Source: Cavenderia fasciculata (taxonomy: Eukaryota; Evosea; Eumycetozoa; Acytosteliales; Cavenderiaceae). From it: a stretch of 64,000 bases of DNA. Made by a program: the position numbers and the translations under genes. How positions within the stretch are numbered: position 1 is the first letter of the stretch; each line of letters opens with the position of its first letter. Location: the NCBI RefSeq assembly GCF_000203815.1, contig NW_004457718.1:248001-312000 (forward strand), given 5' to 3'. Below the pieces are notes generated by a model, which worked only from the letters and a program-made list of their open reading frames with translations, was not told where the DNA came from and did no database searches. Below are positions 13,693 to 47,000 of the stretch, piece by piece.

Positions 13693-14711
13693 TTATCTAT
13701 TTGAATTTAAAAGTCTATAATAGATATCTAAAAATGTTGGTCTTTCATCAGAAGAATGTTTCCAACAATCCTGAATGATTGATTTATAAATCTCTGGGCA
13801 ATCATTTGGCAACTCTAATCGCTTGCCACTTTGTAACAAATCTTTTACATAGTGAGGATTCATACCATCAAATGGTATTTGATTGGTTACCAATTCCCAT
13901 AATATTGTACCAAATGAAAATCTAAAAAAAAAAAATTAAAAGATTATTATTATTAATTTCTATATCTATTTTTTTTTTTTTTTTATTATTTCTACATACA
14001 CATCACTTTTTTCAGTAAAAGGTTTTGAAGATAAAATTTCGGGAGCAGCATAAAAGGCATAGGCCAATCGACTACCATCCAATTTGTTGTCTTTATGTTT
14101 ACAAGATGCTAAACCAAAATCACAAATCTTGATCTTTAGGTTGTTGGTTACCAATAGATTCTTTGATTTTAGATCGGTGTGATAGATTGGTGGGTCATAG
14201 GTAGACAGATGGTAACAGCCAAGTGCAACACCAGTAGCAAAGGTTAGAAGCAGCTGATTATCAATCTTGACCAATCCCTTTGTTCCTTCACGATGTAGGA
14301 TGTCATAGAGTGATCCACGAGGTAGGTATTCAGTGACAATATAACTATACTGTCCCTTGGTACATGCTCCATAATATTTTAAAAGGTTTTCGTGTGGTCT
14401 TAGCTTACTTAGCATACCCACCTCTTTTCTAAAATCTTCCAATGCCTTGTAAGATTGTAATTCTATTTGTTTGATTGCTACCTCTTTACCTTGCCAATAG
14501 CCATGATAAACTGTACTAAAACCACCTTGTCCTATTAATTCCCGTATCTCTAATTCTTTATAATCAATTTCCCATTCATAACTTCTTTTTATCATTGAAT
14601 TTGAATTTGAATTTGTCAATGATGTTATAGTTGCAGTAGTTGTATTTGATACATTTAATGATGATAAAGTTAAAGGTTGATTATTATTATTATTATTATT
14701 TATATAATTAA

Positions 14712-14748
<37 letters not shown>

Positions 14749-16585
14749 GGATAGTTTACTTGTTGTTGGTTGTGATATAGGATCAATAAACTCCATACTA
14801 CTATTTATATTAAAACTATTATTTAGACTATTTGGATTGGATGAATTATGTGATGATTTTAAATTAAACATCATATCATTATCACAACTTGTAGTAATAT
14901 AGTTGTTACCATTGGCACTTCCCCCACCACCACCAATACTATTATTACTCGATATTATATAATTTACATTATTCGTACTACTATTATAGTTATTATGATT
15001 ACTATTTTGATTATTTTGATTATTATTATACAATGAATTAAAAGCAGAAGATGATGAAGTTGAAAGTGAAGCAGTAGATGATGACAAGGAAAGTGTTGAT
15101 GATGTTAATGAAGTTGTTAAAGGGTTTGTTGTTGGATATAATGAACGATATGAATTCATATTATTATTATTATTTCCAGTATTACCACCATTTCCAACTC
15201 CTCCAAATAAATTAACACTACCATCAAAATTACGACGAGGATTACTTGTTGTTGGAATACCATGTGATGAACTTAAATCATCGATTCTATTCAACATGGA
15301 TTGATCAATTTCATCACAATCTGGATTCTTTATATGATATCTAATTGCTTTAATGCCAAGATGATAAAATGAAGGTAATGGATTACCATCTACTCCAATT
15401 TCTCTTATTGATCTAAATAAATGATTTAAATAAATATTTAATCTTTTTCTTTTTCTTTTTTTGTTTCTTTTTTTGTTTTTTTTGTTTTAAAACATACCTG
15501 CACTTTAAAAAACTTTTTGGAAAATTTGATATATGATTATTGTATAATTGTAAATCAACCAATTTGGTGAGAAACCCAATTTCAGCGGGCAACTCTTTAA
15601 TGTTGTTATTGCTGACATCTAGTTTCTTAAGACTAGATAGAAAACAAATGGATTCGGGGAGTTGTTCGATAAGGTTTTGTGAAACGTTTAGCTCGATCAG
15701 TGAAGAGAGATAGTTGATGGAATAAGAGATTGATCGGAGTCGGTTGTGTGAAAATGTGACCTTGGCAAGACGTGTCAACTTGACCCACGTCTTTTCAGCC
15801 ATCTCTGTGATTTGGTTGTGGTCAAATGAAAGACTATGCAATTTGGTGAGATACCTTAGTGACGATGGAATCTCTGTTATTTCATTCTTGGACAACGTTA
15901 GAACCTTGAGTGCTGTCAATTTAGACAATGCATTATTGGGAATAACTGATAATCTATTAATGGAAAGATCGAGTGTTTGGAGTTGAGTGAGACGTGCCAA
16001 TCGACTCTCCTCAATGGTTTCAATGTGGTTGTTGTCAAGGACAAGCTTTCTAAGTGATAATGGTACCTTTGGGAATTGAGTCAACGAGTTGCCCGAGAGG
16101 TAGAATTCCCTAAGTTTCCCCAATCCACCTGCCAGATCGTCTGGCAACTGTTCGAGATGGTTGTGACTGAGGTCGAGTATCGTCAGATGCCGTAGCGTCG
16201 ATAGTATAGGTGGCAGCGTCGATAATAGATTATTAAACATAATCAGCTGCTCCAAACGGTCTTTAACCGATATAATACTCGATTCATCAATCTCCATGAT
16301 CGAGTTGTGTGAAAGATCGATAATTTTGTAATGATTTGGTTGAATTATAATTGGAAATTCCTCTAATCCACTCTCTGATAAATCCAATTCAACTTCATAA
16401 TAATTACCATGATGATTATTATTACCATTATAACTATTTGAATCATTAAACCATAATATTTGTTGTCCATTTTGATTATTATTATTATTATTAGAATGAC
16501 CATATGAGTGATGATGATTATGATCATTTGTATTTGTATTTGGTATTGGTATTGATTGTTGAATTGTTTCAGATGTCGTTGATTT

Positions 16586-16633
<48 letters not shown>

Positions 16634-17684
16634 ATCAGGTTGATAATTTGTAATGATTTGAATATTTGATTTGGTTGATAGATATTGTTGATAGAATGTT
16701 TCCATGTCGGATATAGATACATTTCTCGCCAATGACGATGTCATCATTGTCGCAGTTGTTGTCGTCGAAAAAAATATTTGGAGGAGGACGTGATGGAGAT
16801 GATGGAACATTATTATTATTATTACTATCTATTTTCTTTTCAGTTGACGATGATGATGATGACGACGCTGTCATTAGTGAATGTAAAGATGGCGTTTGTT
16901 GTGTTGTAGTTGGTGATAATAATAGTTTGTTGTTATTTACAGTTGGAGAAGAAGAATGAGAATGATCAACACTCCCTCTTATATTGATATGATGAATGAT
17001 ACCTTCACGACTAGCTCTAATATTATCCATTTGTTGTCGTCTATTGTTACTGTTACTACTATTACTTGGTATACCCATATTACCTTCACTGTCTTGTGTA
17101 CTAAATTCAAAGTAGTGATCGATATTTTGTAAATCTGTTTCGTCTAGTTCGTAACAGTCTTCTCCTCCTCCTCCTCCTCCTCTAACACTGCTACCACCTC
17201 TATTACTATCAGTCGTTTTGTAAATATCTTCCAAAGAGTCATCATCTTCTAGATCGTCATCTAGATCGCTGTCGTCGTCATCACCATCATATGCAAATGA
17301 TGATCCCTCCATTATAAAACTTGTATTTGGTGTTTCATTTTGTGTTATATTACTCGTACTACTTATATCAATAGCTCTTGGCTCGTATACTAATCTTGTA
17401 GTCGTTCTATTATTATTATTATTATTATTATTTATTGACAAGGAGTCTAATGTTAAATCATCACCATCATTCCTCCAATTTTGTTGCTGGTTATTATTAC
17501 TATTATTATTATTATTAAAACTATTACTCCTTATCAATATACTATTACTAATATTATTGTTACTATGACTATTACTATAGTTTGAAGATGATGCTATACG
17601 TTGTTGTTGTTGTTGATCGTTATTGTTATCATTTTTATTGTTATTGTTACTGTCAGTATCGATGTATCCCACCGATATGCTCAT
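13693..17684 (-). CDS. leucine-rich-repeat TKL-type protein kinase
   Basis: Exons 17684-15498, 15412-14000 and 13921-13693 join in phase at both introns. The N-terminal third is acidic and Asn/Ser/Gln-rich. About 12 leucine-rich repeats follow between 16390 and 15500 (LDLSHNHLEQLPDDL type). A second Asn/Ser-rich linker precedes the kinase domain at about 14580-13700: glycine loop IGQGGFSTVYHG, catalytic Lys in VAIKQIE, HTDLKSKN in the catalytic loop, DFG in ICDFGLA, and APE in YAAPE. HTD replaces the usual HRD. The kinase group is tyrosine-kinase-like, widespread in dictyostelids. The first exon changes reading frame at a run of seven T (about 16768-16774), which is either an assembly slip or marks two overlapping genes. 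I favour one gene because the LRR frame has no convincing start. Confidence 0.75.
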
Positions 17685-26439: not shown

Positions 26440-28230
26440 ATGAAACAAAGAAATAATTCAAGGTGTAAGATTAATGATGGAGATGATGATAGTAGTAGTG
26501 AGGAGGTCTCTATAACAAACAATAATAATGTAAATCATGTGACTAAAAGAAGAAAGAATGGTGATGCTCATAATAATGGAACCACTAAAGATACAACAAC
26601 AAAGGAAACATCATACCAGTTTAATAATAATAACAAAAGAGTAATTAACAATGAGGAAGATGATCAAGACGATGAAATTGAAGAAGAAGATGATAATGGT
26701 AAATATATCGACCAATAAATGAATGAATGAAAAAAATTCCCTGGATTACTTACTTATTCTTTTTCCTTTAATTTTAATTTTTAAAAGATGAAAGAGTAGT
26801 ATACAAAGAGAAAGAATTAAAAATTAAACTTAAAAAGGATTTATTATTGATTTGTAAAAGATAATGTAACAGCAACAATGAATCAAACCAAAGATACAAT
26901 CATTCAGAATATTTTAAAAAAGACACAAAACGATAGATTATCAATAATAATTGAACCAACACCCAAAATATTTTAGTGCAACTCAATGTTAGGTATTATC
27001 AATCCAACTCTTCCAATTTGCATCATAGAAAAGATTGTAAGATACTCTTGGAATGGGTATTGGTGTAATTGTTGTAATATTGAAAGTAATCAATATCTCA
27101 TTCAATCAATCGATCAAAAGAATTCCTGCAAGCCAAATCAATGTGTCCCATACACAAAGATTGTGCGCCAAACATAGGTACATACTTTGATAAAAGTATG
27201 ATTGAACTAATCAATCAACTTCGATTTGGAATACCAATGAAATGCAAGAGATTATTTTCATTTGTTTCAAAGTATCTTGTCAAGAGAGTTGTGTTTAATG
27301 ATTCTCCCAACTTTGCCAACCAAGAATCCGAAATATCAGCTATCATCAACATTTTTCAAATCAATATTGCCTTATTGGTAAATCAATAGAAGCTTTTAAA
27401 ATTGAAATGGAGTATACCTCCGGTTCAAGTCATCAAAATTGGGAGTTTCTTCATCTAGATTTCTATTCAAATGTACAACGGTTGAAATTCGTTACGACCA
27501 TGCTACCCCTCTATACTACCTATTTTATACAAAATACAACCAAATTATTCCACTCATTGTCTCGATTACAATCTCTTACTTGATTGGATTTCGGGCAATC
27601 AGTGCTAGACCATGTGGGTCGCATAGAAATCAACCATTTAAAGAATATACCTCTTAGAAAATTATACTATAAAATCAAAGATAATCAATTTCTATTCGAA
27701 CAAGATCATGACAGTGAGATGATCAATGTAAATGGCCACTTACACAATCATTGGAAGCAGTATCTATAAACTCTTTTGATGTCATTCCAAAATTGGATAG
27801 GTTGCCGAAACTGAGACATCTCAGAATTGACATAAATTATGGAATATATGGTACACGCGATGAGCAAATTCAACAATCAATTCTTCCTCCAATGTCACCA
27901 AATTATCATTCTTCAGCCCTGATATGGCTAAAATCAGCAAACACAATCTACATGTGAATCAACTGGTATTGTTACCCACAAACACCAGCTATCATAATAT
28001 CCATCAATTTTATTTACCCTATGACAATGTACAAAGATTACCATCAGAATGGTATTTGGTTCTTCAAACAAAATTCGGCCTTTTATTTCACTTCAAAGCA
28101 ACTTTCAATTCATTGGAACCTTTTATACCGACTCTCAATCAATGTACCATAATCCAAGCTTTGGGGGTGGGAAAACAGTACACCAAAAGTGGGTTTACCT
28201 GAGAAAAGATAGTCACCAATAATTAACAAT
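26440..28230 (+). pseudogene. wrecked copy of the tandem F-box-like/CPMH family
   Basis: A degenerate member of the family found intact at 32526-35635 and 38079-41036. Exon 1 (26440-26699) is acidic with the family's HVTKRRKN and KRVINNEED motifs. The second exon begins with the same ERVVYKEKE segment but soon meets a stop where the intact copies read through (a 2-base loss at about 26870). Most of module 1 is deleted. The sequence then jumps to module 2 (LPICIIEKIVRYSWNGYW near 27010), after which fragments matching module 2 and the C-terminus appear in different frames down to about 28200. It abuts the left end of the piggyBac element. Confidence 0.8.
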
Positions 28231-28981: not shown

Positions 28982-30758
28982 TTATCCTTGTCGTTGTTGT
29001 TGATGTTGATGTACTATTGCCGATAGAAGCAGTTTGTTTTCTGGGAGATGTGCTATAAGATAGCATTCATCGTGAAAGTTAACTTTACATTGGCAACAAG
29101 TCTTGGTGGTTCTTGTTCTACGCTTTACATCAAGGACTTTGCAATACTGACAAGGATTTAGATCACCTTGAACCAATGCGTGGACTACAGTTTGAGGAGC
29201 AGCAGCAGAAGTGGGAGCATATTGGCCTCCATTTCCACTGGTTACGTATGTGGATTGTGTAGCCAATTCTTGTTCCAGTTGTTTAATCCTATCTCTTTGA
29301 TCCTGGAATACTTTTGATGTAATTGGATTCAAGTGTTCCAATTGTTTTTGAATAGGCTCCTGCAAGCCAAGCTTATCTCTTACCACGTTTTGAGTGAAAT
29401 CACAAAATCGGTATGTGCTATTGCCTTCAAGGGATTTGAAGATGCAATATGCATTCACCATTGCACGATCCAACTGCGCAAATATGTTAACATGTGTGTA
29501 TTTGCTTTTTCGATGGGGATATGACCGACAATTTGATGATAGTTGTCCTGACAGATCGACTCCGTGGGTAGTTGCATTGTATTGAGTCTGCACATCGAGC
29601 TTTGTGAGTTTTCCTTCTTTTAATGTATATGGATTACAGGAATTTGATAAAAAATATGTTACTTTGCTGTCATTGATGGCGGTGGCACAAATGTCCTGGG
29701 GAATACCAGAGTCTTCTTTTGGAAATGCTATAGCAGCCAACTTTTTCTTGTTGTCCTTTTGTACCATGCGTCCTAAACCATCTTTGAAAAGGTACGTTGG
29801 TCTAATGGACCTTACAGTCATTACATAATGAATCTTATTGTTGGGATTGTTATCGTCGTTGTTGGAATTGATGTTTTGACTAAAGTTTGATAATACAGTG
29901 GCAACTTGTAATGATGTGTAATAGTTATCCATTGCAAACAAATAGTGACTCAATGGTCTATCATCTGTAGCTACTTTTTGTCTGACCCACTCTGCAAATT
30001 CGATTGGGATTTTAAGAGGACTATTTGGTGGAAAAGAACTAACCACAGATGGATCTAAATAAGACAATAATAATGATTAGACATATGATGATAATGATGA
30101 TATTTGTAAATTGTTATAAAACAACATACCTATTGTTACAGATTTTGTTGTAGATTCATCACTACCTCTGTAAAGCCATTGGGTCAATATAAAACCATTT
30201 GAGTCAGATAAAACGAAATACTTTAATCCAAATTTGTGTGGTTTATCTGGTTCATACTGCTTGAACCTTACCAAGCCTTTATAAGGGGCCATATATTCAT
30301 CGATTGATAAACGTAATGATGGGATATAGTGGTTGTTTGAATTTTTTTCAATCATTTGAATGACGGAATCTTCGTCATAGTGAAGGAATTTGAGGATGGA
30401 CTTAAATCTTTTTCTTGACATTAATGGGCTGATAACAGATGGAGGATGGAAAGGGCTCTTTCTATTCCAATGGTCTTCCGCCCGTGGGAGTTTGACAAGA
30501 CCCATAAAAAAGGCAATATAAAAGAAATTCTCCAATTGTTTATAGGTAAACAACTTGGTGTTGTCAACCAACTGTATTTCCTCTTGTTCTAACTGTTCTT
30601 GAATAAAGCTAAGCCTATCTTGTGGAGATAATCCTTGTGGCATTGTTGATAGAAACCCACGCTTCCAAGTCTCAAAATCAACCATTCTTCCAACAATTTG
30701 ATTGTACTCAGTTTCTACTGCATTGGTTTGATTTGAGGTAGATGTGGTAGATGTTGTC

Positions 30759-30816
<58 letters not shown>

Positions 30817-32284
30817 TGGTCGATGTTTGCGAGTGGGAGGGTGTGAACAAACGAAGCAGACTGGATCCAAAGCTTGAAGAGGAAGTGGTGGCGGTGGTGG
30901 GAGTTGTTGATGAAGATGTATTAGAAAGAATAGGAGGTTGGAATTGTTCGTTATCTTCATCAATTATTGTAACTGGCTGGCTCTTTCTTTGATTTTTCTT
31001 TTATTTCTTTTTTCTCCTTGGTGTATCAGCCTCTTTTTCTTCATCATTATCATCATCTTCTTCTTCATTGTATCTTCTTCTAGAAGTTGAATATGTAGTT
31101 GTTGTTGTTGATGATGATGATGGAGGCGGCTGTGATTCCTTTGACTTATTCGTGAGAAAAAGTCTTATTTGTTGGTAATGTTGCTTGATGTATTTATAAT
31201 CCCTTGCATATTTGCTTCGATGGATGAGATACAAATTCGATTCCTCGAGTATGTGGTTGATGACTGATTCGTCGATTATCAAGCTTATTACTTGACTAGG
31301 AGTTAATGGTTGATCGATGTTTTTGCTACGTGCTGATGCATTGCTGCTATCCATTTCATAGGTTATTCGATTCGACAATTCTTCTGAGTTTGTATTATTT
31401 AAAATAGTCCATTTCTCTTTGAATAGATCCCCTATAAATGTGATAATTGTTCTAATTTGTTAGCAAGTTGTTGGTGAATCATCTATCTATCTATTTATAT
31501 ACATACGACATGGGCATTTACATTGAGAAGTACAACCATTATTATATAACTTGCATTTGCAAGCAGTACAATTCCCCTTGTTAGCGCATTTACATTCAAA
31601 AATGGTTGTGTCTTGAACAAAATAGTAAGACTTGGATGCACGTTTGTCCAAGTCCGTTAGGTTATTGAATAATGGGATACGACCGACACTTTCTGGTTGT
31701 TTTTTCTTCTTGTTATTCAACTTGTGGACATAAATCAATCTTGTTTGAAGAAATCTATTGAACTTCTGGTGGATTTCCAACTCTTCAGGTGATTCAATGG
31801 CTTCAATAGATTCTTTTGCTTCAAACTTCTTGAATAACTCCATGTGGGCATCGAAAGTCTCTTTGAACCATTCAAATTCCTCTTGTAAATCATCTTCTTT
31901 GTAGTTGGTACGTGGTTTTAGTGGTGGTTGTTGTTGTTGTTGTGAATACTCTACTTCTTTTTCTGGTACAGGTGTATGTGATCTTTGATATTCTGGTTCA
32001 ACAAATGCATCATCTTCTAGATCTTCATCGTCAAGTATAGCATTACCATCAAGTAAAGGATTATCATCAAGTAGATGATTGTCATCAAGTTGATTATTAT
32101 CATCATACTCGGCTTCGATCCCTCCTTTGTATATGCTTCGAAACAATGCTACACCTTTCTTCAAACTTTCAAACATAGTTGTTGCTGCTGCTGATGCTGC
32201 TGATGCTGTTGATGATTTATCTGTAAATACTCGTATTTTTGCAATAAAGAAACATATAATAGATAAATAATGTTGAGCGTACAC
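28982..32284 (-). CDS. piggyBac transposase with N- and C-terminal Cys-rich regions
   Basis: Exons about 32284 (or Met at 32176)-31507, 31431-30130 and 30054-28982 join in phase. The catalytic core has MSRKRFKSILKFLHYDED, then SIDEYMAPYKG, LFAMDNYYTSL and THGVDLSGQL, which carry the three catalytic Asp positions of the DDE_Tnp_1_7 family. The C-terminus has the family's Cys-rich zinc domain (CQYCKV ... CCQCKVNFHDEC). An unusual N-terminal segment near 31590-31510 is very Cys-rich (CKCANKGNCTACKCKLYNNG, then more CxC pairs), CXC-like. Exon 2 is interrupted once by an in-frame TAA at 31003-31001 within a Lys-rich stretch; otherwise the frame is continuous. It is therefore probably recently inactivated, or the stop is an assembly error in an A-rich run. 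A GAT repeat at 30759-30816 encodes poly-Ser. Confidence 0.88.
30759..30816. repeat. GAT trinucleotide microsatellite
   Basis: About 19 uninterrupted GAT units within the transposase, read as a poly-Ser run on the minus strand. It also creates long artefactual frames on the other strand. Confidence 0.9.
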
Positions 32285-32525: not shown

Positions 32526-35500
32526 ATGAAAGAAAGAAACAAGGGTACTCATGACAGTAATAATGATGATGATGATGAGGAAGAGGAGGAAGATGATGAA
32601 GAAACAACAACAACAACTACTACAACAAACAACAATCGTATTACTAAAAGAAGAAAGAATGCCGAATCACCTGATAGTAATGATGGTGATACAACATCTA
32701 CTCTTGCTATAGATCAATTACGACAAAGAAAGAGATCATCATCATCAACGTCGTCATATCTGTTTAACAGTAATAACAAGAGAGTAATAAACAATGAAGA
32801 AGGTGATGAAAACGAAAAGAGTAAATATAAACTATATCGTATTAAGATTGATTGATTGATTGCTTGTTATTCTATCTTGCTAATATATATCTTCTTTAAT
32901 TTTTAAAAGATGAAAGAGTAGTATACAAAGAGAAAGAATTGAAAAGTAAACTTAAAAAAGATTTACTATTGATTTGTCAATCATTAGATGTAACAGCTAC
33001 AATGAATCAAACCAAAGATACAATCATTCAGAGTATTTTAAAGATACAAAACGATAGATTATCATTTAAACATAATATGATTGATAATAATCCTTTACAA
33101 GATTACAACAAAGGATCACTTGAATATTCTTTACCGTGGCCAATCATCAGTAGAATACTCGATCTACTATGGACGCAATCATCTATTTGTACTTGTTACT
33201 ATAGCGATCAATTTATTAGTACTGTAAAATCACACTCAACCAATAATGACTTGGGTATTTTTCATTACTATCAAATGTGGCCATTGTATAAACCTCTTTT
33301 GGATCAATACAAAGAATCAAGAATGAAATGTCCAATGCATTCGTACTACTATTCAAATGGTCTAGTTCCGTCAATCATCATTTCAGCGCCATTTGTTTTC
33401 GATTTAAAAGACAAGCCAATTTGGAGAGTACAACTTTTAACACTCTCCAAACGAGTCAACCAGTATTTTTCATTCAAATATTTTACCAATGTTAAACTAT
33501 CATTCAATCAAGATTTATGGAATCATATCAACGGTCAATACTGTCCAATCAAAACACCAAAACAACTTTCAATCAGTAATGCCTATGACTATGATAGTTT
33601 TGGCAATAACAACACATCAATATTTTCGACAGTTGAAAAGTTATCGATCGTTGATCAAACCAACTTTTCAACAAGTCATATCAAGAGTATACAAAAACAA
33701 TTCAAGAATATCAAATCTTTTACTTTAAGAAATTATTGTGCCTTTAAAACACCATTCCTATCACAATTCAAGAATCTTACATCACTCAATTTAATATTTG
33801 CACCATATATTGATGACCAACAACAACTATTAAATATTCTTAAACCTGGGATGATTAAACTTTTACTCCCAAGTGAATGGACAACAGAAGAAATTACCCT
33901 TAAACCTAAACTAGCCAACACCATTCAAATCAGTAATATCACTCCACCAAATCAAATGCCAAACTTGCATACCTTTCATCTTCCCTATGCATCATATGAT
34001 ATGTCATCGTTTGATCATCCAAATGTTACAAAATTGGTGGATCCATGTACCAACTCTCAAGCAATGTCACTCATTGTTCCTCCAACCATTGACACTTTAA
34101 AATTCAGTGCAGATCCAAGTCTTTTTCTAGACATCAATTTAATTACAAAGGCAACATTTTTTAATGAATTGAATGTCAACAAACTCATTATCAACTGTCA
34201 AACTGAAATATCAGATCAAACTATAAATCAAATGAAAAGACATGGATATGAATACGATGGTGCAATAAGAAAGTTATCAACCAAAAGACAACTACATTTT
34301 ATTAAAACAACTACACCATCAACACCTGAAATAATCATTCAAACACCTGATATAGTTGTACACAAACAAGTAGAGATCAATAATCCAACACTACCATTTT
34401 ATTTAATTGAAAAGATTATTGGATACTCTTGGAATAGTTATTATTGTACTTGTGATATTGAAACTACACCAGACAATGAAAATCGTACACACTCTAGAGA
34501 TATTACAGATTACATCAAACAATCTGAAATATTCCTCAAGGCAAAATCAATATGTCCAATGCATAAGAATCATATACCAAATACCGATACATACCATCGA
34601 GATAGTCCAATACAACAAATCAATCAACAAAGATTTGGAATTTCTCAGTCATGCAAAAGACTATTCGAATATGTTTCAAATCATCTTGTCAAGAGATCTA
34701 GTTTTGCTTTTCAAGAATACGAAACATTACTCAGACACCAACACTATTCGAATCAGTATTGTCTAATGGGTAAATCAATTGAAAATCTCATCATTGAAGT
34801 ACCCCATCAAGTCACTGGTAAAGTTTGGGAGTTTCTAAATCTTCATCATTATTCAAATACTCAAAGTTTGAAATTCATGCTAGTGCGCCCATCTCAATTA
34901 CCTAGTGTCCCTGTATTCATCAATTCACTTGGTCGATTACAATCTCTAACTTCATTGGATATATCTCAATGGAGACTACTAGATCAAGAAAGTACATTGG
35001 CTATCAAAGAATTAAAAAATCTACCTCTTAGAAAATTATACTATCAAATGAAAGATAATCAATTTCTATTTCAAGACAATAATGATGGTGACAGTGAAGA
35101 TGATTCAAGTAAATGGCCAATTACAAAATCATTGGAATCAGTATCTATCAACTCTTTTGATGTCATTCCAAAATTGGATAGATTACCAAAACTCAGACAT
35201 CTAAGAATTGATATAGAACGTGAACAAGGACAAAATGGAAATGTAGAGTTGACAGAACAACAAATCCAATCAATTCTTCCATCCACCATCACCAAACTAT
35301 CATTCTCTGATACCAATATTGCCAAAATCAGTCAATACAATCCTCAAGTAAACCAACTAGTCATGTTATCACCCAACAATAACTACTATTTTGACCATCA
35401 ATTCTATTTACCCTATGATAATGTACAAAAGATATCAATTAGAATGGTATCCATTCATCATATCAATCGCCGGTACCCTCACATTTCACCTCAAAGTAAC

Positions 35501-35635
35501 TTTCAATTAATTGGAACCTTTTACACGAGCATAAACACAGATGGCACAGTAAATCATAAATGGGTCTATTTAAGGAAGAATCAACAACCCTACAGTTCAA
35601 CCAACCCAACAGCTACGACTACTAAATATAAATAA
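32526..35635 (+). CDS. tandem-family protein A: SAP-like + two F-box-like/CTC-CPMH modules
   Basis: Exons 32526-32820 and 32910-35635 join in phase (1006 residues). Exon 1 is acidic and disordered with a basic TKRRKN motif (possible NLS) and KRVINNEE. Exon 2 opens with a SAP-like helix-turn-helix (about residues 107-142: LKKDLLLICQSLD ... TKDTIIQSILKI). Module 1 follows: F-box-like LPWPIISRILDLLW, then CTC (Cys190, Cys192) and KCPMH (Cys237, His240), then LSKRVNQYF and LRR-like strands. Module 2 repeats the plan: LPFYLIEKIIGYSW, CTCDIE, ICPMH, SCKRLFEYVS, and LRR-like strands (RLPKLRHLRID). I do not know a named family. By analogy with F-box/LRR proteins a substrate adaptor role is possible, but this is inference. 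Confidence 0.8.
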
Positions 35636-35756
35636 TAAATAATAAAATTAATTATTCCATTTCTTGGAAATACAAAGCTTGTTCTCAGACTGTGTCTCTT
35701 GCTAAAAAATGCTGTGCATATTGTTTATTTAATTATCATCTGTCACTCAAACAACA

Positions 35757-37663
35757 ATGAAAGATAGAAAGAATACATTTCAATTTGTAAACAAGAGTGC
35801 TAAGATAAATAATAAAAATAGTAATAGTAATAGTAATAAAGAGAATGATGTGATATTATTGGATAGTAAGAGTGAGGAAGAAGAAACAGTAGTAAATACT
35901 AAGACTACAACAAACAATCATGTGACTAAAAGAAGAAAGAATAATATGACTGATAGTAATAACAACAACAACAACGATGATACAACAACAACAAAGGACA
36001 TCGATAAAGTAAATAACAATAATAGTGCTACTGATCAATTACAACAAAGAAAGAGATCATCAGCATCAACATCATCAAATCAGTTAAATAATAATAACAA
36101 GAGAGTAATCAACTTTGAAGAAGATGATAATCAAGAAGATGTAAAGAGAAGTAATATATCAAACTTGAATATTGATAGATGTTATTCTCATTAGGTTACT
36201 TACTCTACTTTAAAGTTAAAAAACAGGTAGAGAATGAATTAAAGAGTAAACTTAAAAAAGATTTATTATTGATTTGTAAAAGATTAAATGTAACAGCTAC
36301 AATGAATCAAACCAAAGATACAATCATTCAGAATATTTTAAAGATACCAAACGATAGATTATCATTCATCATTATTGATAATAATCCTTTACAAGTTTAC
36401 AACAAAGGATCACTTGAATATTCATTACCGTGGCCAATCATCAGTAGAATACTCGATCTTGTTTGGACAGATGCATCTATTTGTACTTGTTACTATAGTG
36501 AACAATTATTTATTTCATTGGTATCTAAAGGTCCCCGTTCTCTTTTTGATCACTTTCAAATGTACCCAATCTATCAACAGTTGATGGATGTGTACAAAGA
36601 ATCTAGAATGAAATGTCCAATGCATGCATACTACTATTTGAATGGTTTGTATCCTCCAGTCAACATTGCCATTTCTACACCTTTTTATTCTGAATTCAGA
36701 AATGACAAAAACCGTTGGAGATTTAAACTTTTAACTCTATCGAAACGAGTCAACCAGTATTTATCATCCAATCACTTTACCAATGTTAAACTATCATTTA
36801 ATCAAGATCTTTGGAATCATGTCAACAACCAATATTGTCCAATCAAAACACCAAAAAAACTTACACTTGACAAACACCACCAACTTCAACTATTTTCAAA
36901 CCGCAACTCAATGTTATTTTCAAAGGTTGAAAAGTTATCAATCTTTTATACACCAGGATCCAAAGAAATTCCACAACCTGTTTTCAACAACATACAAAGT
37001 CTATTCAAGAATATCAAATCATTGACTTTAAAATTTTATATAAAATATGAAGTATCAGTCCTATCACAATTCAAGAATCTCACGTCTCTCAATTTAGAAC
37101 ATCCACCTCATCTTTGTAACGATAGACAACAACTATTGGACGTTCTTCAACCTGGGATGATCAAACTTTTACTTCCAAGTCAGTGGTGTACTGAACCAAT
37201 CACACTCGGCACCAAACTAGCCAACACTATTCAAATCAGTAATATCACTCCACCCAATCAAATGCCAAACTTGCACACCTTTTATACTCCCTATGCATCA
37301 TATGGTATTTCCTCATTCTATCACCCAAATGTTACCAAATTGGTAGAATATTACACACGACCAAAATACGGTAGTCCTCTATTACCCATTATCCTTCATC
37401 CTTCCATTGAAACTTTGAAAATAGGGTCAAAGGAAGATCATTTTTATCGTGTTGAAATCAATGTTTTATTCGATAGATTGAATGTCAAGAACCTCATTCT
37501 TTTCTATTATCCAGATATATCAGATAAAATTATAAATGATTTTAAAAGACATGGATATGAATATAAAGGTTCTGTTTTCAAAGGGCCAACAAAAAGAAAA
37601 CTACATTTTATTAAAACAACAACACCAACACCTGAAATAACACCAAAAATATCAAGGGTTTGA
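35757..37663 (+). CDS. tandem-family protein B: shortened, module 1 only
   Basis: Exons 35757-36140 and 36227-37663 join in phase (606 residues). It has the acidic, Asn-rich exon 1 with HVTKRRKNN, the SAP-like segment (LKKDLLLICKRLN ... DTIIQNILKI), and a full module 1: LPWPIISRILDLVW, CTCYYS, KCPMHAYYY, LSKRVNQYLS and LRR-like strands. It stops after the linker (HFIKTTTPTPEI) where paralogues continue into module 2. A detached piece of the family's C-terminus follows at 37691-38008, so module 2 was probably deleted internally. The reading frame of what remains is clean, so it may still be expressed as a one-module protein. Confidence 0.75.
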
Positions 37664-37690
37664 TATAATCATTATAATAAAGATTCAAAC

Positions 37691-38008
37691 ATGGATTGTA
37701 ATCAATGTAGCAAGTACACCAATAACTATTCCAAGAGTACCCAACAAATTGCCAAAATGACTAGATACAATATTCATGTGAGGGAACTGGTATTCTTACA
37801 CACCCTTATAGGCATTGACTATCATAAAGCTATTCAATTTCCAACCTATGACAATATCCAAAAGATTACCGTCAATACATATTCCTTTACCTCTCACCGT
37901 AACTACCCTTTGATTCCCGAAAGAGATCGTAATCATACACATCAAGGTGAGTTTATGCATCAAAAATGGCTTTATTTGAGACGAGATGAATTCCCCAAAA
38001 AAAAATAA
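37691..38008 (+). pseudogene. detached C-terminal remnant of tandem-family copy B
   Basis: Matches the end of paralogues A and C: QIAKMTRYNIHVRELVFL corresponds to NIAKISQYNPQVNQLVML, and KWLYLRRDE to KWVYLRKNQ. It lies directly after the stop of copy B, without module 2 and without its own start signals. Best read as the tail left after an internal deletion of about 1.2 kb. Confidence 0.7.
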
Positions 38009-38078
38009 ATAAAAAGTGTTATTGTTGCAGATCAACGATCACTCTTATTTTTCTTTACAGACAGCATTCTTTTTATCA

Positions 38079-41036
38079 ATGAATAATGAAACAATGAAGG
38101 AACGCAGTTCAAACAACGATGACAATATCGATGAGATGCTGTCGTTTAGCAAAGATCATCTGAAAACAGAAGAAGAAGCACAACATATTACAAAAAGAAG
38201 AAAGAGTAATATAAACACGATGGATTCAACAACTGATAAAGTAAATAATGATGATAGTAGGAAAGATATCGATCAATTTTCATCATCAACTTCACATCAG
38301 CTTAATATAAACAACAAGAGAGTAATCAACTTTGAAGAAGATGAAAATAATCAAGATGGTAAATATAACTAATGTAGATGAATGAAATGAATTCATTGTT
38401 TAGATATTTGTATTTACAATCCTTTTTAAATTTGTAAAGTTAAGCAACAACAAAATGAAAGATCAATAACCAAACGATCTATTTCAATCAAAAACATTAT
38501 GATTGATTATAGTAAAGGATCACTTGAATATTCATTACCGTGGTCAATCGTCAGTAGAATACTCGATCAACTTTGGATTGAATCATCTATTTGTACTTGT
38601 TACTATAGTCATCAATTAATTGATACTTTAAAATCGCAACCCGATGGCGGGGTCTATTCTCCTTTTGATTACTATCAAATGTGGCCAGTCTATCAACCAT
38701 TGATGGATATACATAAAGAATCAAGAATGAAATGCCCAATGCATGCATACTACTATTTGAATGGTTTGTATCCTTCAATCAATATTTCTGCCCCATTTGT
38801 TTCTGAATTGAACAATGACAAAAACCATTGGAGATTTAAACTACTTGAATTATCCAAACGAATCAACCTTTATTTATCATCCAATCACTTGACCAATGTT
38901 AGGCTATCAATCAATCAAGATTTATGGAATCATATCAACAACCAATATTTACCTATCAAGGCACTAAAACGACTGACAATCAATCTTACCTGTACACCTG
39001 AAAACTTTGTCAACACATCAATATTTTTCTCTGTTGAAAAGCTTTCAATAGATGGAAATAGAGATATTTCACCAAAATTTCTAAGGAACTTACAGAGTGT
39101 TTTCAAAAATATCAAATCATTCACATTCAAAATCTTTAGTAAATTTAATTGTAATCTACAGTCCCTTTTCCAATTCAATAATCTCACTTCAATCAATTTG
39201 ACATTTCCACCCCACAATTCTCATCGACAACAACTATTGGATATTCTTCAACCGGGGATCATTAAACTTTTACTCCCCGGCTGTTGGTGTACTCAACCAA
39301 TCACGCTCAAAGCCATTCTAGCCAACACTATTCAAGTCAGTAACATCTCTCCACCAAAACAAATGCCAAATTTGCACACCTTTTATACCCCCTCTTCATC
39401 TTACGATATTTCATCGTTTGATCATCTAAACGTGACAAGGATAGTTGATCAGCCTTATGACTTGCAATCATTACCACCCATCATTGCCCCCTCGACTATT
39501 GAAACTTTGAAATTCAGTGCAAATCCAAATCCAAATTTATTTCTTGATGTTAATTCTATTATTCAAACTCCTGGTTTGTTGGATCAATTAAATGTCAAGA
39601 AACTCATTCTTTACTGTCATTTGGAAATATCAGACAAAACCATTAATTCTTTTAAAAGACATGGATATGAATATCAAGGTGCTATATTTAAAGGACCATT
39701 AAAAAGACAACTCCATTTCATCAAAATAACTAAACCAACACCTGAAATAATAATTGAAACAACACTAGAAACAGTGGTACACAAACCAACAGAGATCAAC
39801 AACCCAACACTCCCCTATTACCTAATTGAAAAGATTGTCAGATACTCTTGGAATAGTTATAGGTGTACTTGCGACATTGAAGGTGAATTAGTTGATCAAA
39901 GCAATCAGCCCCAGTTTCAAATGGGAGATTATATCAAACAATCACAAAAATTCCTCAAAGCCAAATCAATGTGTCCAATGCATAAGCATCGTTTACCATA
40001 TATCAGAATTTATAAAGGAGAAAGTGTAATTAGACAAATCAACCAACTTCGATTTGGAATACCAACTTCATGCAAGAGACTATTTTCATTTGTTTCCAAG
40101 TATCTTGTAAATAGCTCTTGGATTCCCTTACAAGAATCTGAAATATCAAACAGACATCAACATTATTCAAATCCATATTGTCTGTTTGGTAAATCAATTG
40201 AAACTCTCACAATTGAGATCTCACATACTATCAACAAAAGAAAAAGCTGGCGGTTTCTTAATCTCAATCACTATTCAAATTTAAAAAGTTTGAAATTTGC
40301 ACCAGTGGGTACGAACCAATTTTCCCTCCCATGTATCCATAAACTTCTATCACAAAGTGGCCGTTTACAATCTATTACTTCATTGGATCTCTCAATATCA
40401 AAACTTGACACAATCAGTGGGTTATCCATCAGCTCTTTAAAGAATCTACCTCTTAGAAAACTATACTATGTTTTCAAAGAGAACCAATTTCTCTTTCAAC
40501 AACAAAACAGTGAAGATGATGATTCAAGTAAATGGCCAATTACACAATCTTTAGAATCAGTATCTATCAACTCTTTTGATGTCATTCCAAAATTGGATAG
40601 ACTCCCAAAACTCAGACATCTAAGAATCATTATAGATTCAGGTCATGGATTTAACGTAAACATCGAGTTTTCAGAACAACAAATGAAATCAATTCTTCCA
40701 TCCAATGTCACCAAACTATCTTTTGTCAATACCAATATTGCTAATATGTGTCAACACAATCCACAAGTAAATCAACTGGTATTGATATGTACCTATAGCT
40801 ATGATGGTCGTCCATTTTATTGGTTTGATGACAATGTTGAAAAGATTACGATCAAAACACTCACTTATATTCCTCACCGCTCCAAACCTTTTATTTCACA
40901 CCAAAGCAACTTTCAATTCATTGGGGCCTTTTACAAATGCGTCCAAACTCTAGCCAATGGCACAATGCACAAATGGATATATTTGAAAAAGAATGATCAA
41001 TCAACCCAACAGTTACGACTAAACAACAATCAATAA
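38079..41036 (+). CDS. tandem-family protein C: two F-box-like/CTC-CPMH modules, no SAP-like segment
   Basis: Exons 38079-38358 and 38440-41036 join in phase (958 residues). Exon 1 is acidic with HITKRRKS and KRVINFEED. Exon 2 starts with a short basic stretch (QQQNERSITKRSISIKN) in place of the SAP-like segment found in A and B. Module 1: LPWSIVSRILDQLW, CTCYYS, KCPMHAYYY, LSKRINLYLS. Module 2: LPYYLIEKIVRYSWN, CTCDIE, MCPMHKH, SCKRLFSFVS, followed by LRR-like strands ending in KWIYLKKN. Similarity to A is high throughout, including the intron position after exon 1. The next gene is convergent and only 60 bases away. Confidence 0.8.
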
Positions 41037-41097: not shown

Positions 41098-44000
41098 CTA
41101 CCGAGGTGGTTGATGATAAGGAGGATATTGTTGTGGTCTATGTTGATCGTATAAATGAGGTGGATATTGTTGTGGTGTTTGGTGATATGGATGAGCTGGA
41201 GGTTGGTGATGTTGTGGTTGTGGTGGATATCCTTCTCTTGGTGGATGAGATGTTGGAGGTGGTTGGTGATGTGGATGTGGCGGATACCCTTCTCTTGGTG
41301 CGTGAGATGATGGAGGAGGTTGATGATGAGAGGGCAGATGTGGGGGATAATGATTTGGTGGTGGTTGGGCTCTTGGGGGATACGCATAAGCATATCTATG
41401 ATCGCTATATTGATGAAGTGGATGAGAGGATGGAGGAGGTTGATGATGATGAGAGGTGGGTGGTTGGTGATGTGGATGAGCTGGAGGCTGATGATGTTGC
41501 GGTGGTGGATGAGACGCCGCTGGTGCTGGTGGGGGATATGTCTCTCTAGGAACAACATTTGGTACATGTGGTTGATGGTATGGATGAGTCGGGGGATGAT
41601 AGTGTTGTGGTTGTGGCGGATACCCTTCTCTTGGTGCTGGACTATATCTCTCGTCCCTTGGTTGAGTTTGTTGAAGAGGAGGAAGAGGAGCAGGTGGAGG
41701 AGACTGTAGATGTTCCTCTTTAGGTGGGGGTGGTGCTTCGAGTTGTTTTTGAGGTTGATCTTCCTCCAATTGCATTGGCTCTGGTACCTGTATTGGATTT
41801 TGTTCCTCCTCGTCAGGAGACTCAATCTTTGGCCCCTCGGCGCTTGGAAGTGCAAGAACTGGTATGGATGGCGAGGAAAACTCGCCCTCTTCTTTTTCGT
41901 GTTTGTTCTCAATAGCAAGAGTCGGCTCTTGTTCTTCTTTTGCTTCATCTTCCTCTTCTGGCACCAACAATTCTTTCTCTGGTGCTACCACTAGTGCCAG
42001 AGACTCGGTTTCAAGATTCTCCTTTGGAGGGGTAGGCTCTGATTGTTGTTTTTGGAGTTCAGGTACGACTGGCTCTGCTACTGCTGCTGTTGGAGGAGCT
42101 GTATTGGGTGGCTGTTGAGGAGGTTGTGGTGAATAAACATCAGCTGTTGGAGGTGGGTAGGGTTGAGGTGTATGTCGTGTCTCGGGTGCGGGTGGGTGTC
42201 TACCCTCATCTCTTGGTGGTTGTGGTGAATATCCTGCATGTGTAGGAGGAGGAGGAGGAGAAGGATAGTGAGGTGGATAAGGTGGTCTTGTATCTGGAGC
42301 AGGTGGTGGGTTTCTACTTTCATCTCTTGGTGGGTAACTGTGTGCAGGAGGAGGAGGAGAAGGATAGTGGGGTGGATAAGGTGGTCTTGTCTCTGGAACG
42401 GGTGGTGGGTCCCTACCCTCGTCCCTTGGTGGGTATCCGTGTGCATGAGGAGGATAGTGAGGAGGTGGAACATGTCTACCCTCTTGGGTTTCTGGTTGAG
42501 GAGGGTAATGTGATTGTGGTGGATATCTATTGGGATCAGCTTGTGGTACTGCTGGTGGAGGATGTGGGTATCTAGCATGATCATAATGTCCACCTCGTGT
42601 GTCGTGTTGCGGATGATGATGAGGATTTGGTGGATATCCTTGATGTGCAGGAACAGGAGGAGGAGGGTGATGGGGGTGTTGGTATCCATGGGGAGGTGGA
42701 TATGCAGCAGGTACTGGAGGTGGGTGGGGGTGAGAATGGCTCGGTTGATGATGATGGGGGTAAGGGTTTGTATGAGGTGGTTGGGTAGGATGTTGAGGAG
42801 GAGGGTGATGGGGGTGTTGGTATCCATGGGGAGGTGGATGTGCAGCGGGTGCTGGAGGTGGGTGGGGGTGAGCATGGTTCGGTTGATGATGATGGGGATG
42901 TCTTGGATCATCTCTTGTTGCTGGTGGTGGATGAGGATACGGACTCGTATGAGGTGGTGGAGGAGCAAATCGTGGATCTTGGCTACGAGGTGGAGAAGAT
43001 CGATGATGTTGGTAATATCCTCCTGGTGAGGGTTGAGGAGGTGGATGTGCATCTCTTGTTGGAGTTGGTGGATATTGGTGAGCAGGTTGTGGATGGTCAG
43101 GAACAGGTCTATGTTCCTGAGGATGGTGTGGATAATGTTGTGGAGGATAATGATGTGGTTGTGGTGGTGGATGAGGTTGAGATTGATGGTGTTGTTGCTG
43201 ATGTTGAGGAGGAGTATGAGCCAAATGTTCACTTTGATGTCTTCTCGGTGATCTATAAGGAGACTGTCTTGGATCGGCTGATTGATGGTTATTTTCTCTT
43301 GGAGGAGAATCAGCCCAAGGATTTGCCTCGGAATGATCGACTTCTATTATATCACTTCCTCCAAATCCACCTCTATCAAATGAAACTCTACTCGCCGATG
43401 ACTGTTCGTGCATCTTTTCTTCCTTTTCCTTTGGTGTCGTTTGTGAAGGTTTTCTTGCCGTGTTTCGAGTGATGATAACAGCAATCAATGAATTTTTAAA
43501 GGTAGAAGGAGAGGAATCGTCAACCGATGTAGATGACTTTTGCACCCTTAGGAATTCTGGGAATTCATCTTGTTTGCAAGGAAGCAGATAAATGCATTTG
43601 ACATTGATCTTGCCCGAGACGAGAGTTGGCTTGGCAACGAGAACGGGTGCCGTTGACTTTGAAATCTCTTTGAATGCCGTGTCGTACAAATTACGGTCCA
43701 ACTCTGATGATGGATCGAGCATCCAAATACTCTTGGCACGCGTCTTGGAGAGTGACTCCATCTGTACAATAAAATCCGAGAGTGCTGTAACTTCCATCGA
43801 TCCGATAAATCTGATTTGATCCAATTTCTCTGATGCAAATGCTTGGACGACGGATCGATCGCCACCGACATGTGAAAACTTGACCTTGAACGATCTTAGT
43901 TTAGACCCACCCTTTTCGAGCAGTGGAAAAGCAAGTAATACATTTTTGAACAATTGTATTTGTAGTGGTGGTGATGAAGGTACCTCTACATCTGTTGAAT

Positions 44001-47000
44001 TGTTATTATTGTTATTATTATTATTACTATTATTACTTGTACTTGAAATTTCCTCCAATGGTGATGATGGATGATCAATAAATGGATTATCATGACCACC
44101 AACACCTATATCATTATTGTTGTCAAATTGATTATAACTAACAAATACTTCTTCATCATTTTTGTGTTGATGGTGATGAATCTCTGTACCAATACCTTTG
44201 ATGGTTCCAATTGACACCGATGCAGGTTCCTCTTTCTTTTGTGAATCAATGTTGACTTCCACATCACCTTTGTGCGTTTTCTTGATGATTGTCTTTTTAT
44301 CATCTGGCAATACGATTTGATGCATTGACTTTTCCTTTAATTCCTTTCTCAATTCTGCCAATGAATTGGTCGCCCAATCTTGTGGTGACATTTCCGCAAT
44401 CTCTCTTGGTTCAATATCAAAACATAATATTCCACCTCTCAACTCTGGATTTGATTTAATATTAAATACTAATGATCTTGACCTTAAAAAAAATTAATAA
44501 ATTAAATAATTTAATATTAAATATTGATATACATACTTTGTAACATATTCACGACTTTGATGACCATCTGATTTTGAAAATAAAGCAGCTTCAATATTTT
44601 TAGATAATTCAGATATTTTTTCCATGTCTAGACAAGGAAGTTTAGTCAATGGTAACGTAGCATATCTTTTAAAAAAAGAAGCAGGTGCATTCTCTTTGAC
44701 ATAGTCTATCATTTTACTACTGTATCCAATAAAATAAGGTTCCAAATCATCTATAAATCGTGGTTGTTCTAATAATAAAACCGGTGATTTGTTTAGAGCT
44801 AAATGTTGTGCGATAGATTCAATTGGTTGAGATGGTATCTCTTGAGTTTGTTGTGATGATGGGAGTGGTTGTGGTTGAGGTGTTGGCAAGATGATTTGCT
44901 CGCTTGGTTGTGATTGTGGTGGAGGGGTTGGGAAAATGTTTTGCTGGGATTGCTCAATTGGTTGAGACTGTTCAATTGGTTGGGATTGTGATGAATCAAT
45001 CTCCATTTGTGATGATGAATCAATCTCCATTTTTGCCTGTTGTTGTTGATCTAAATTTGTGGTTGTTGAATTATTATTCACATTATTATCTATTGATTGA
45101 TTAAAAGATTGTGAATTGTCTACCAAATGTGTTGGTTGAGATGGGGGAGGTGGAAAAAGATTTGTATCAAAAGATTCGGATTGTTCTGTAAATTTTGAAA
45201 AATCTTGAAGAATGGATGGTGAAATGGGTTGGTTGATTAGAAGTGACTGACTGTACAGATGCAAAACCATGGTGCAATCTGCTCCACCAAACAAATCACG
45301 ATATCCATGTGATGCATCAGCCTTTGTCGCTGAATCTGGTGATTGAGTTTTTGTAGAGGTTGTTTCAGCAGTATTGGGTGGCGGTATTATAGTAGTACTA
45401 TTATTATTATTATCTGCTATAGTAGTTGGTGGTGCAATATCCATTGGATTGGTAATGGTTGATTCTGATGGGACCTGTACAATTGGTTCCTGTTGTTGGT
45501 TAGGGTTAATTTGTGATTTTTCTTCAACTGGTTGTTGTTGACTAATAATATTAACAGGCAACTGGGACGGCTGATCAATTTCTACATTGATTACCTCGAA
45601 TGTCTCCAATTCTTTTGAGATTTTATCCATTTGTGAATTAATTAAATCTTGGAAAAATGAATCACCTATTTAAAAATGAATGTTAGTAACAAATAAATAA
45701 ATATTTCTCTCTTTCTCTATCAATATACATACCAAATGGAGTTAATAAAGATTCATATAATAGATTTTGAACAGTTGATCGATTATCAGAAACAGAATGT
45801 TGTTGTTGTTGTTGTTGTTGTTGTGATTTCGATGGTGTTTCTGGTTGAGTCGATGATGAAGTAGTCGTTGAAGAGGAAGCAGTGGTAGTAGTAGTAGTAG
45901 GAGGTGATGAACTTCCATTTGAAAAAGGTTGACTTGATGAAACGTTGGTGGTTGTGGTGGTGGTGGTGTTGGTTGCGGTGGATGGTGAGGTAGATGATTT
46001 TTGTTTATCTACTGGCCTGCTGGTTGGAGTCGAAGTTGAAGTCGAGCTACTACTACTACTACTACTATTATTAGTAGCAGTTTTAAATTGTGAAGAATAT
46101 GGTTTTGAAGATGAAGTTGGTGGAGGTTGTGATTGATTACTATTCTCTTTTTCCTTTTGCATTCTAAGAGATTCTTCATGAATCATTTTAGCTCTTTCCA
46201 AACTTTTAAGTGCACTTTCGTTGGAAGCTCGGGCTGCCATTTTCTTTTTCTGATTCTTTGGACTGATCAAAATCAATTTTGAAGGATCAGGTATCTTTTC
46301 AATCGGCTGGAATCTACCCTTGTAAAATTGGTGTTGATTGTTATTTTGTTGCAATTGTTGTTGCCATCCTGTTAATCCTTCTGCCGATGATTTGAGTGAT
46401 TTGGGTGATCCAGGTGACGATGTAGAAGTAGAGTTGGTTGATGATTTAAGTGAAGGTGACCTTGATGATGATGATGTAGATGAAGATGTAACCTTTGATT
46501 TCTTCTTTGGTGTTGTAATTAGTTTATCCTTTTCCTTTTCTTTTGGTGATTTGGATGATGTGCTCTTTTTAGAAGATTTTTTACCGCTGTCAGAGTCACT
46601 ACTATTACTACTACTGCTGCTTGTCCAATCACTATCACTATCACTACTACTACTATCACTTGAAATAACCCTACTACCACCACTACTATTGGAATGATTA
46701 CCACTATTCCCATTATTCGTAACCTTTTTCTTTTTCTGTTCATTCATTGGTCCAGATCTGGATGTTGTCGATTTGGGTTGACTATGTTTTTTAGGAGTTG
46801 GAGTAGTAGGAGTAGTAGAAGTCTTTGGTTTCTTTGTTCTATCCTCTTCTGCTGCTGCTGCTGCCGTCATAGTCGTTGATTTAGATGGTTTCTTCTTTAT
46901 TGGAATATTGTCCATTCCACTACCCCGATATTCTCTATTTGTTGTAGTTGTTGTCGTCGTAGTCGTCGTTGTTGATGATGTTGTACTTGTATTGTTGTGA

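Follow-up and report, generated by a model that had tools for sequence, protein, structure and literature searches.

An F-box-like module with a putative Cys/His metal site, recurring in a large gene family of Cavenderia fasciculata

In F-box proteins with leucine-rich repeats (LRRs), such as Skp2, an F-box (Pfam PF00646, PF12937, PF18511) with a first helix of the form LPxx[IL][IL]xx[IV] and a second helix bearing SKR or CKR is followed by the repeats. According to the available text of PMC9485057, sequence may also lie between the F-box helices, as in Ctf13, Amn1, Ylr352w and Ydr306c; such insertions make the motif hard to detect, and 38 Dictyostelium Skp1 interactors show F-box-like sequence if insertions are allowed. 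Here we describe three tandem genes, A, B and C, on the plus strand at 32526-41036 of a window of 64,000 nucleotides from Cavenderia fasciculata (positions 248001-312000 of contig C8; the genome searched comprises 31.0 Mb in 21 contigs). Their products are built around a module that resembles the F-box of Skp2-like proteins in both helices and in the LRR-like sequence that comes after it. It differs from that F-box in having 22-71 residues between the second and third of four putative metal ligands alone (measured in a set of 38 modules), in scoring below the Pfam cut-offs and in being present twice in each complete protein.

Ctf13 and other F-boxes with insertions share with the module the extra sequence near or between the F-box helices and the LRR tail, and Ctf13 has Skp1 as its partner (PMC5771398, PMC9485057, in the text available of each). 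In contrast to what we propose below, zinc is placed in the Gal4-type domain of Cep3 rather than in Ctf13, and the available text of PMC5771398 does not mention a CxC...CxxH loop. The Skp1 interactors of Dictyostelium that combine cryptic F-boxes with FNIP/LRR sequence are likewise LRR-type proteins with divergent F-box-like sequence, insertions being allowed (PMC9485057, available text), and a relative of the A/B/C family may be among them; the words ‘zinc’ and ‘SAP’ are absent from the main text of that paper as available. A, B and C, unlike the interactors with FNIP, have no match to FNIP (PF05725) at E up to 10, in a genome where FNIP repeats are abundant (at least 193 matches). The available part of PMC8535579 mentions neither FNIP nor SAP. 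A literature search lacking most subscription papers found no publication on a dictyostelid F-box with zinc and leucine-rich repeats or on a Dictyostelium F-box with a SAP domain, no use of the phrase ‘zinc-binding F-box’ among the 15 papers listed of 187, and, judging by title, nothing related on F-box proteins of Cavenderia fasciculata.

The module is real, recurrent and under constraint, and is without a name in the libraries searched. Its five copies in the window each carry LPxxx[IV]xxIxxxxW, CTC and CPMH, and, as a sequence-only reading of this DNA had proposed, proteins A and C each contain the plan twice. Module A1 lies at 33131-33490 (LPWPIISRILDLLW at 33131-33172, CTC at 33188-33196, CPMH at 33329-33340 and an SKR helix region to about 33490), A2 at 34391-34711 (LPFYLIEKIIGYSW from 34391, CTC at 34445-34453, CPMH at 34553-34564, then a CKRLFEYVS helix), B1 at 36425-36790 (CTC at 36482-36490, CPMH at 36614-36625), C1 at 38535-38910 (CTC at 38592-38600, CPMH at 38733-38744) and C2 at 39810-40127 (CTC at 39864-39872, CPMH at 39972-39983), all on the plus strand. 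Among the columns identical in all five are L7, P8, I15, W20, C26, T27, C28, C73, P74, M75, H76, R105, K113, R114 and S120 (numbering of window:33113). The same reading had stressed low mutual similarity, which holds between first and second modules (the second modules are 22% identical to A1) but not among first modules (66 and 68% identity to A1). The consensus of the first modules is YSLPWPIIxRILDxxWTESSICTCYYS...KESRMKCPMHxYHYLN...WRxQLLxxSKRVNQFLSS and that of the second modules TLPFYLIEKIVRYSWNSYYCTCExE...AKSxCPIHKD...QINQLRFGLSxxCKRLFEFVSKxLV, from alignments of 19 and 16 rows respectively, whose members were collected by a pattern requiring the Cys and His.

The ligands were tested independently of that pattern by profiles in which their four columns were masked, run over 955 open frames from fetched loci; homology to protein A or a CPMH DNA pattern had led to these loci, others being regions selected subsequently, and copies lacking CPMH could be found by homology alone. 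The masked first-module profile aligned 55 stretches, 32 of which span all four columns, and C,C,C,H was recovered in 31 of the 32; the lone exception (C20:353302, L067) reads CQMH by eye and is seemingly gap-shifted. With the masked second-module profile, 28 of 45 aligned stretches span the four columns. Eighteen of these are second modules, all with C,C,C,H, and the other 10 are first modules, three with C,C,C,H and seven shifted at the CxC pair; the first-module profile aligns all seven as C,C,C,H. Stretches falling short of the four columns (23 and 17 for the two profiles) were left out of the counts. In a two-clade set of 38 modules (20 first, 18 second), drawn by a pattern requiring CxC but not CxxH, both CxC and CxxH are present in 38 of 38. 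The deep clade of the family retains all four ligands, with variation at the Pro and Met of CPMH (CPCH, CQMH, CAVH, CPTH). At the DNA level, the genome has 42 occurrences of the pattern TGTCCNATGCAT and 3 of its reversed control, several of the 42 lying outside the family in unrelated frames. The claim that all four ligands are conserved is thus borne out, and the four Cys/His ligands expected of a zinc module are there. It is likely that the module binds metal at this putative site, because the ligands are conserved in a protein that is probably intracellular, no signal peptide being seen by eye.

Occurrence of the module beyond the cluster, in a large family that evolves fast, is plain from three protein searches of the genome. 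Protein A gave matches at at least 55 places, its deeper paralogue L066 at at least 56 and L005 at at least 44, many of them weak. Merged at 1 kb, these form at least 60 clusters on 15 contigs, at least 43 of them of 1.2 kb or more and at least 23 of 2.2 kb or more (merging at 300 bases gives at least 74); these include fragments and perhaps clusters that match by the tail alone. Members of the deep clade (L064, L066-L069, L074) are 26-31% identical to A where matched and 31-37% identical to L066. The complete ones have a SAP-like segment, a first module, a tail, a second module and a second tail, L069 being a first half only. In L005, a second CxC...CxxH region was cut off at the end of the fetched stretch and was excluded from the counts.

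The two halves of these proteins are related. A profile comparison of first with second modules gave 97.3% (E 2e-11; both alignments preselected for Cys/His), whole halves, module plus tail, gave 99.7% (E 1.5e-25, 340 columns, 15 proteins), and the tails without their modules 98.0% (E 2e-13). In a tree of the 38 modules, one branch parts first from second modules (support 93/84; 98% of 200 bootstrap trees, the bootstrap not having settled), and both clades are represented on each side of it. Since the halves are homologous and their modules split on one branch with both clades on each side, a single duplication of the module-plus-tail unit most likely preceded the radiation of the family.

The modules are under purifying selection, with faster tails. 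The ratio of nonsynonymous to synonymous substitution (dN/dS) over whole frames is about 0.30-0.55 in 19 of the 36 possible pairs of nine intact copies, pairs that share members and so are not independent; the ratios are rough, dS being 0.69-1.7 over whole frames and two regional values infinite. In all 19 pairs compared, dN was lower for each module than for its tail. A docking partner common to the family and targets that differ would fit modules that stay fixed while their tails evolve faster. The view that the family consists mostly of decayed duplicates with little function is hardly credible: a number of copies are fragmentary or have internal stops and B is truncated, but these dN/dS values, the slower modules and the many copies whose frames stay open for 800-1000 codons all speak against it.

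The explanation that we favour, with moderate confidence, is that the genes encode lineage-expanded intracellular substrate receptors of the F-box/LRR type, in which a split F-box is braced by a 3Cys-1His metal site. A complete protein would consist of two copies of a unit made up of helix 1, a metal loop, helices 2-3 and LRR-like repeats. In each unit, F-box helix 1 (LPxxIIxxIL) would be followed by an insertion of about 50-125 residues carrying C-x-C ... C-x-x-H, and then by F-box helices 2-3 (xxLxxxSKRxxxFxS). The site would hold a metal, most likely one zinc, and so brace the insertion that helix 1 and helices 2-3 could still pack together and dock on Skp1, while selection of the ubiquitination target would fall to the LRR-like tails. 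The metal and its identity, the F-box fold, Skp1 docking and ubiquitination are parts of this scheme that we infer; Skp1 docking is a fair guess, and a role in ubiquitination would follow only if that docking is true.

This scheme places the Cys/His site differently from the sequence-only reading. The recurrent module with its four near-invariant putative ligands and the LRR-like sequence after it stand as described there, but the site does not appear to be attached behind an F-box-like helix; rather, the SxxCKRL/LSKRVN helix seems to supply the second half, helices 2-3, of one and the same F-box-like fold, and the Cys/His loop would be an insertion within the F-box.

F-box identity of the module is only suggested, by motif spacing and profile scores. 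The spacing of LPxxIIxxIL is that of F-box helix 1 and the spacing of xxLxxxSKRxxxFxS that of helices 2-3. The helix-1 motif LPxx[ILV][ILV]xx[IV] is found in 37 of 38 modules and in 12 of 18 true F-boxes, the module set having been drawn by a related pattern, so that the count holds partly by construction; L and I are invariant in the set and P is present in 37 of 38. Both motifs together occur in 36 of 38 real modules and in 0 of 7600 shuffled ones, the modules being relatives drawn by a related pattern. With the loop excised, a profile of the 38 modules aligns in F-box register to a profile of 18 F-boxes from the same genome (score 17.81, probability 18.4%), and 0 of 100 column shuffles score as high; the best of these shuffles reached 15.27, and the profiles in reverse 10.71 and 11.19. 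When the loop is left in, the alignment covers helix 1 alone (7.8%), again with 0 of 100 shuffles as high. For clade-1 second modules compared with the F-box profile, none of 60 shuffles reached the real score, whether the loop was excised or not. Scored over 24 and 23 windows of the two halves, the best F-box matches are those of windows covering the SKR/CKR helix, and the window at position 0, that of helix 1, ranks 4th and 3rd. Skp1 itself is found in the genome, at two places.

Several results weigh against an F-box. Clade-1 first modules fall within their shuffles (17 of 60 as high when uncut, 3 of 60 when excised). Windows confined to the SKR helix reach 17.1, little short of the score of the excised construct, and therefore helix 1 contributes little to the profile match. 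No uncut or excised module passes a Pfam F-box model, the best matches being F-box_5 at E 0.042 (1 of 10 excised modules) and F-box at 0.039 and F-box-like at 0.094 (one each among 16 uncut second modules); for 19 first modules, and for 5 and 6 clade-2 modules, Pfam lists no F-box. The contiguous three-helix F-box of about 45 residues is not found; the Cys/His loop separates the motif halves in 38 of 38 modules. The LRRs of A also lie below the Pfam cut-offs (LRR_4 E 0.00065, 20.3 bits against a cut-off of 27). AlphaFold2 models of protein A with the three window proteins (predicted local distance difference test score, pLDDT, 39.5) and of A1 with the five window modules (46.1) are both unusable; they have helices at helix 1 and at the SKR region, which at these scores are not evidential, and the strand-helix alternation of the LRR-like tails appears only in a low-confidence model of this kind. 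To our knowledge, two F-boxes per chain would be unusual.

A possible, though doubtful, alternative to the favoured scheme is that the module is a new lineage-specific helical zinc domain in another kind of LRR scaffold, with LPxxIIxxI and SKR resembling F-box helices by convergence. The sub-threshold or absent Pfam F-box scores are what it would predict, as are the modest profile probability, owed mostly to the SKR helix, the clade-1 first modules that do not rise above shuffles and the lack of a PDB sequence relative. It does less well with the order of the two F-box motif halves, both present ahead of LRR-like tails, and with the failure of any of the 100 shuffles to match the 38-module profile.

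That no named domain has this combination agrees with the library searches. Pfam searches of whole proteins, of uncut, excised and clade-2 modules and of N-terminal segments gave no match above cut-off, and PDB searches gave chance-level matches and no sequence relatives (best E 0.054, to napin). CHC2 and zf-Nse zinc fingers have the common Cys-Pro-x-His knuckle, but their matches are at chance level (CHC2 in 3 of 16 second modules, best E 0.028; zf-Nse in 1 of 5 clade-2 second modules, E 0.065), and both were rejected. A Foldseek search with the protein A model had no match at E of 0.001 or below; its list of 50 consists mostly of dihydrofolate reductases, with SCF(Skp2) at rank 18 and the InlB LRR at rank 39, and was taken as noise. 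Pattern candidates in viral contigs (profiles A1, A5, A6) and in prokaryote genomes (A2, A5) included none confirmed as a relative.

It is unlikely that the family is instead nuclear, with a SAP-like N-terminus, metal module and LRRs acting on DNA or chromatin and not in a Skp1-Cullin-F-box (SCF) ligase. A SAP/Rho_N-like segment is N-terminal in A, B and several deep paralogues, and basic KRRK and QRKR stretches occur in exon 1 of A and B. In A this two-helix segment (ELKSKLKKDLLLICQSLDVTATMNQTKDTIIQSILK) lies at 32936-33043 on the plus strand. Its matches are below cut-off (Rho_N in A, E 0.057, 13.8 bits against 24.9; SAP_new25 in the deep paralogue L067, E 0.1, 12.7 bits against 26.3), and gene C, in which both halves are present, is without the SAP-like segment found ahead of the first module in A and B. 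A chromatin association would in any case be compatible with an F-box role.

A bolder form of the F-box scheme, which we regard as improbable, is that Skp1 docking is switched by gain or loss of the metal, either zinc or an oxygen-labile Fe-S cluster, at the site that separates helix 1 from helices 2-3, the tandem pair bridging two Skp1/Cullin arms. If true, it would make these proteins an SCF class of amoebae under the control of metal or oxygen.

More improbable still is a module that senses oxygen or iron through a [2Fe-2S] cluster, or some other redox metal, bound at the site. CDGSH proteins have a 3Cys-1His ligand set, which the order CxC...CxxH resembles, but the ligand spacing is very unlike that of CDGSH, no CDGSH or Fe-S family is among the Pfam matches of the modules, and zinc is the commoner use of such Cys/His ligands. 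The sensor idea draws some appeal from the oxygen-dependent control of Skp1 in Dictyostelium (PMC9485057, available text) and from FBXL5, described in the part of the literature available as an iron-responsive F-box/LRR protein.

Should the favoured scheme of a split, metal-braced F-box be right, dozens of genes that have no domain name at present would count as candidate ubiquitin-ligase receptors, and F-boxes would come to include a version that carries its own metal site, an unusual way of building a protein-destruction adaptor. The module profile could then find other cryptic F-box proteins, whose insertions hinder motif detection (PMC9485057, available text).

Each of the three genes appears to have a short first exon and an intron, deduced from reading frame and GT-AG ends rather than from transcripts. 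Gene A (32526-35635, plus strand, 1006 aa) would comprise exon 1 at 32526-32820, an 89-nt GT..AG intron at 32821-32909 and exon 2 at 32910-35635, the frame being open through the putative splice. Its presumed exon 1 encodes low-complexity, charged sequence, and the first exon of B resembles it. The first LRR-like tail of A has approximate limits of 33491-34330 and is recognised by the sub-threshold LRR_4 match and by homology of the halves; the second, at 34712-35632, rests on Pfam matches below cut-offs and the same homology (both plus strand).

Gene B is truncated (35757-37663, plus strand; putative exon 1 at 35757-36140, intron at 36141-36226, exon 2 at 36227-37663). Its first module is present as first read from the sequence, so that the five modules listed there all exist, but its second is missing: the frame stops at 37663, after the first half, and is followed by an apparent remnant of the C-terminal tail at 37691-38008 (plus strand), whose likeness to the C-terminus of A and C was judged by eye. 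Gene C (38094-41036, plus strand) probably has an exon 1 from 38094 and an intron at about 38359-38439, and then runs to 41036; its donor and acceptor were fitted by hand, a scripted split not having begun with GT. Upstream, at 27329-27718 (G000:C8:275329-275718, plus strand), lies a decayed fragment of another family member, with 50% identity to residues 574-697 of the A open reading frame and one stop. Elsewhere in the genome, two adjacent deep paralogues at L068 (G000:C21:884700-890200) are nearly identical along much of the first tail and differ upstream and in the second tail, a pattern suggestive of gene conversion or of a partial duplication of recent date.

Just upstream of the gene cluster, a transposase fragment on the minus strand (30077-30685; DDE_Tnp_1_7, E 1.3e-25, a family that we take to be linked to piggyBac) may bear on the tandem duplications. 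Between it and gene A, also on the minus strand, is a 229-aa frame with a Cys-rich end (ECKCANKGNCTACKCKLYNNGCTSQCKCPC; 31487-32176) and no Pfam match at E up to 0.01. Convergent with gene C is a repetitive minus-strand frame of 1097 aa at 41098-44391, very rich in Pro, His and Gln; at 42001-44000 the local G+C content is 0.484 and the GC skew 0.401. Further away on the minus strand, at 13966-16810, a kinase-domain frame adjoins an LRR frame, and the two are perhaps one LRR-kinase gene.

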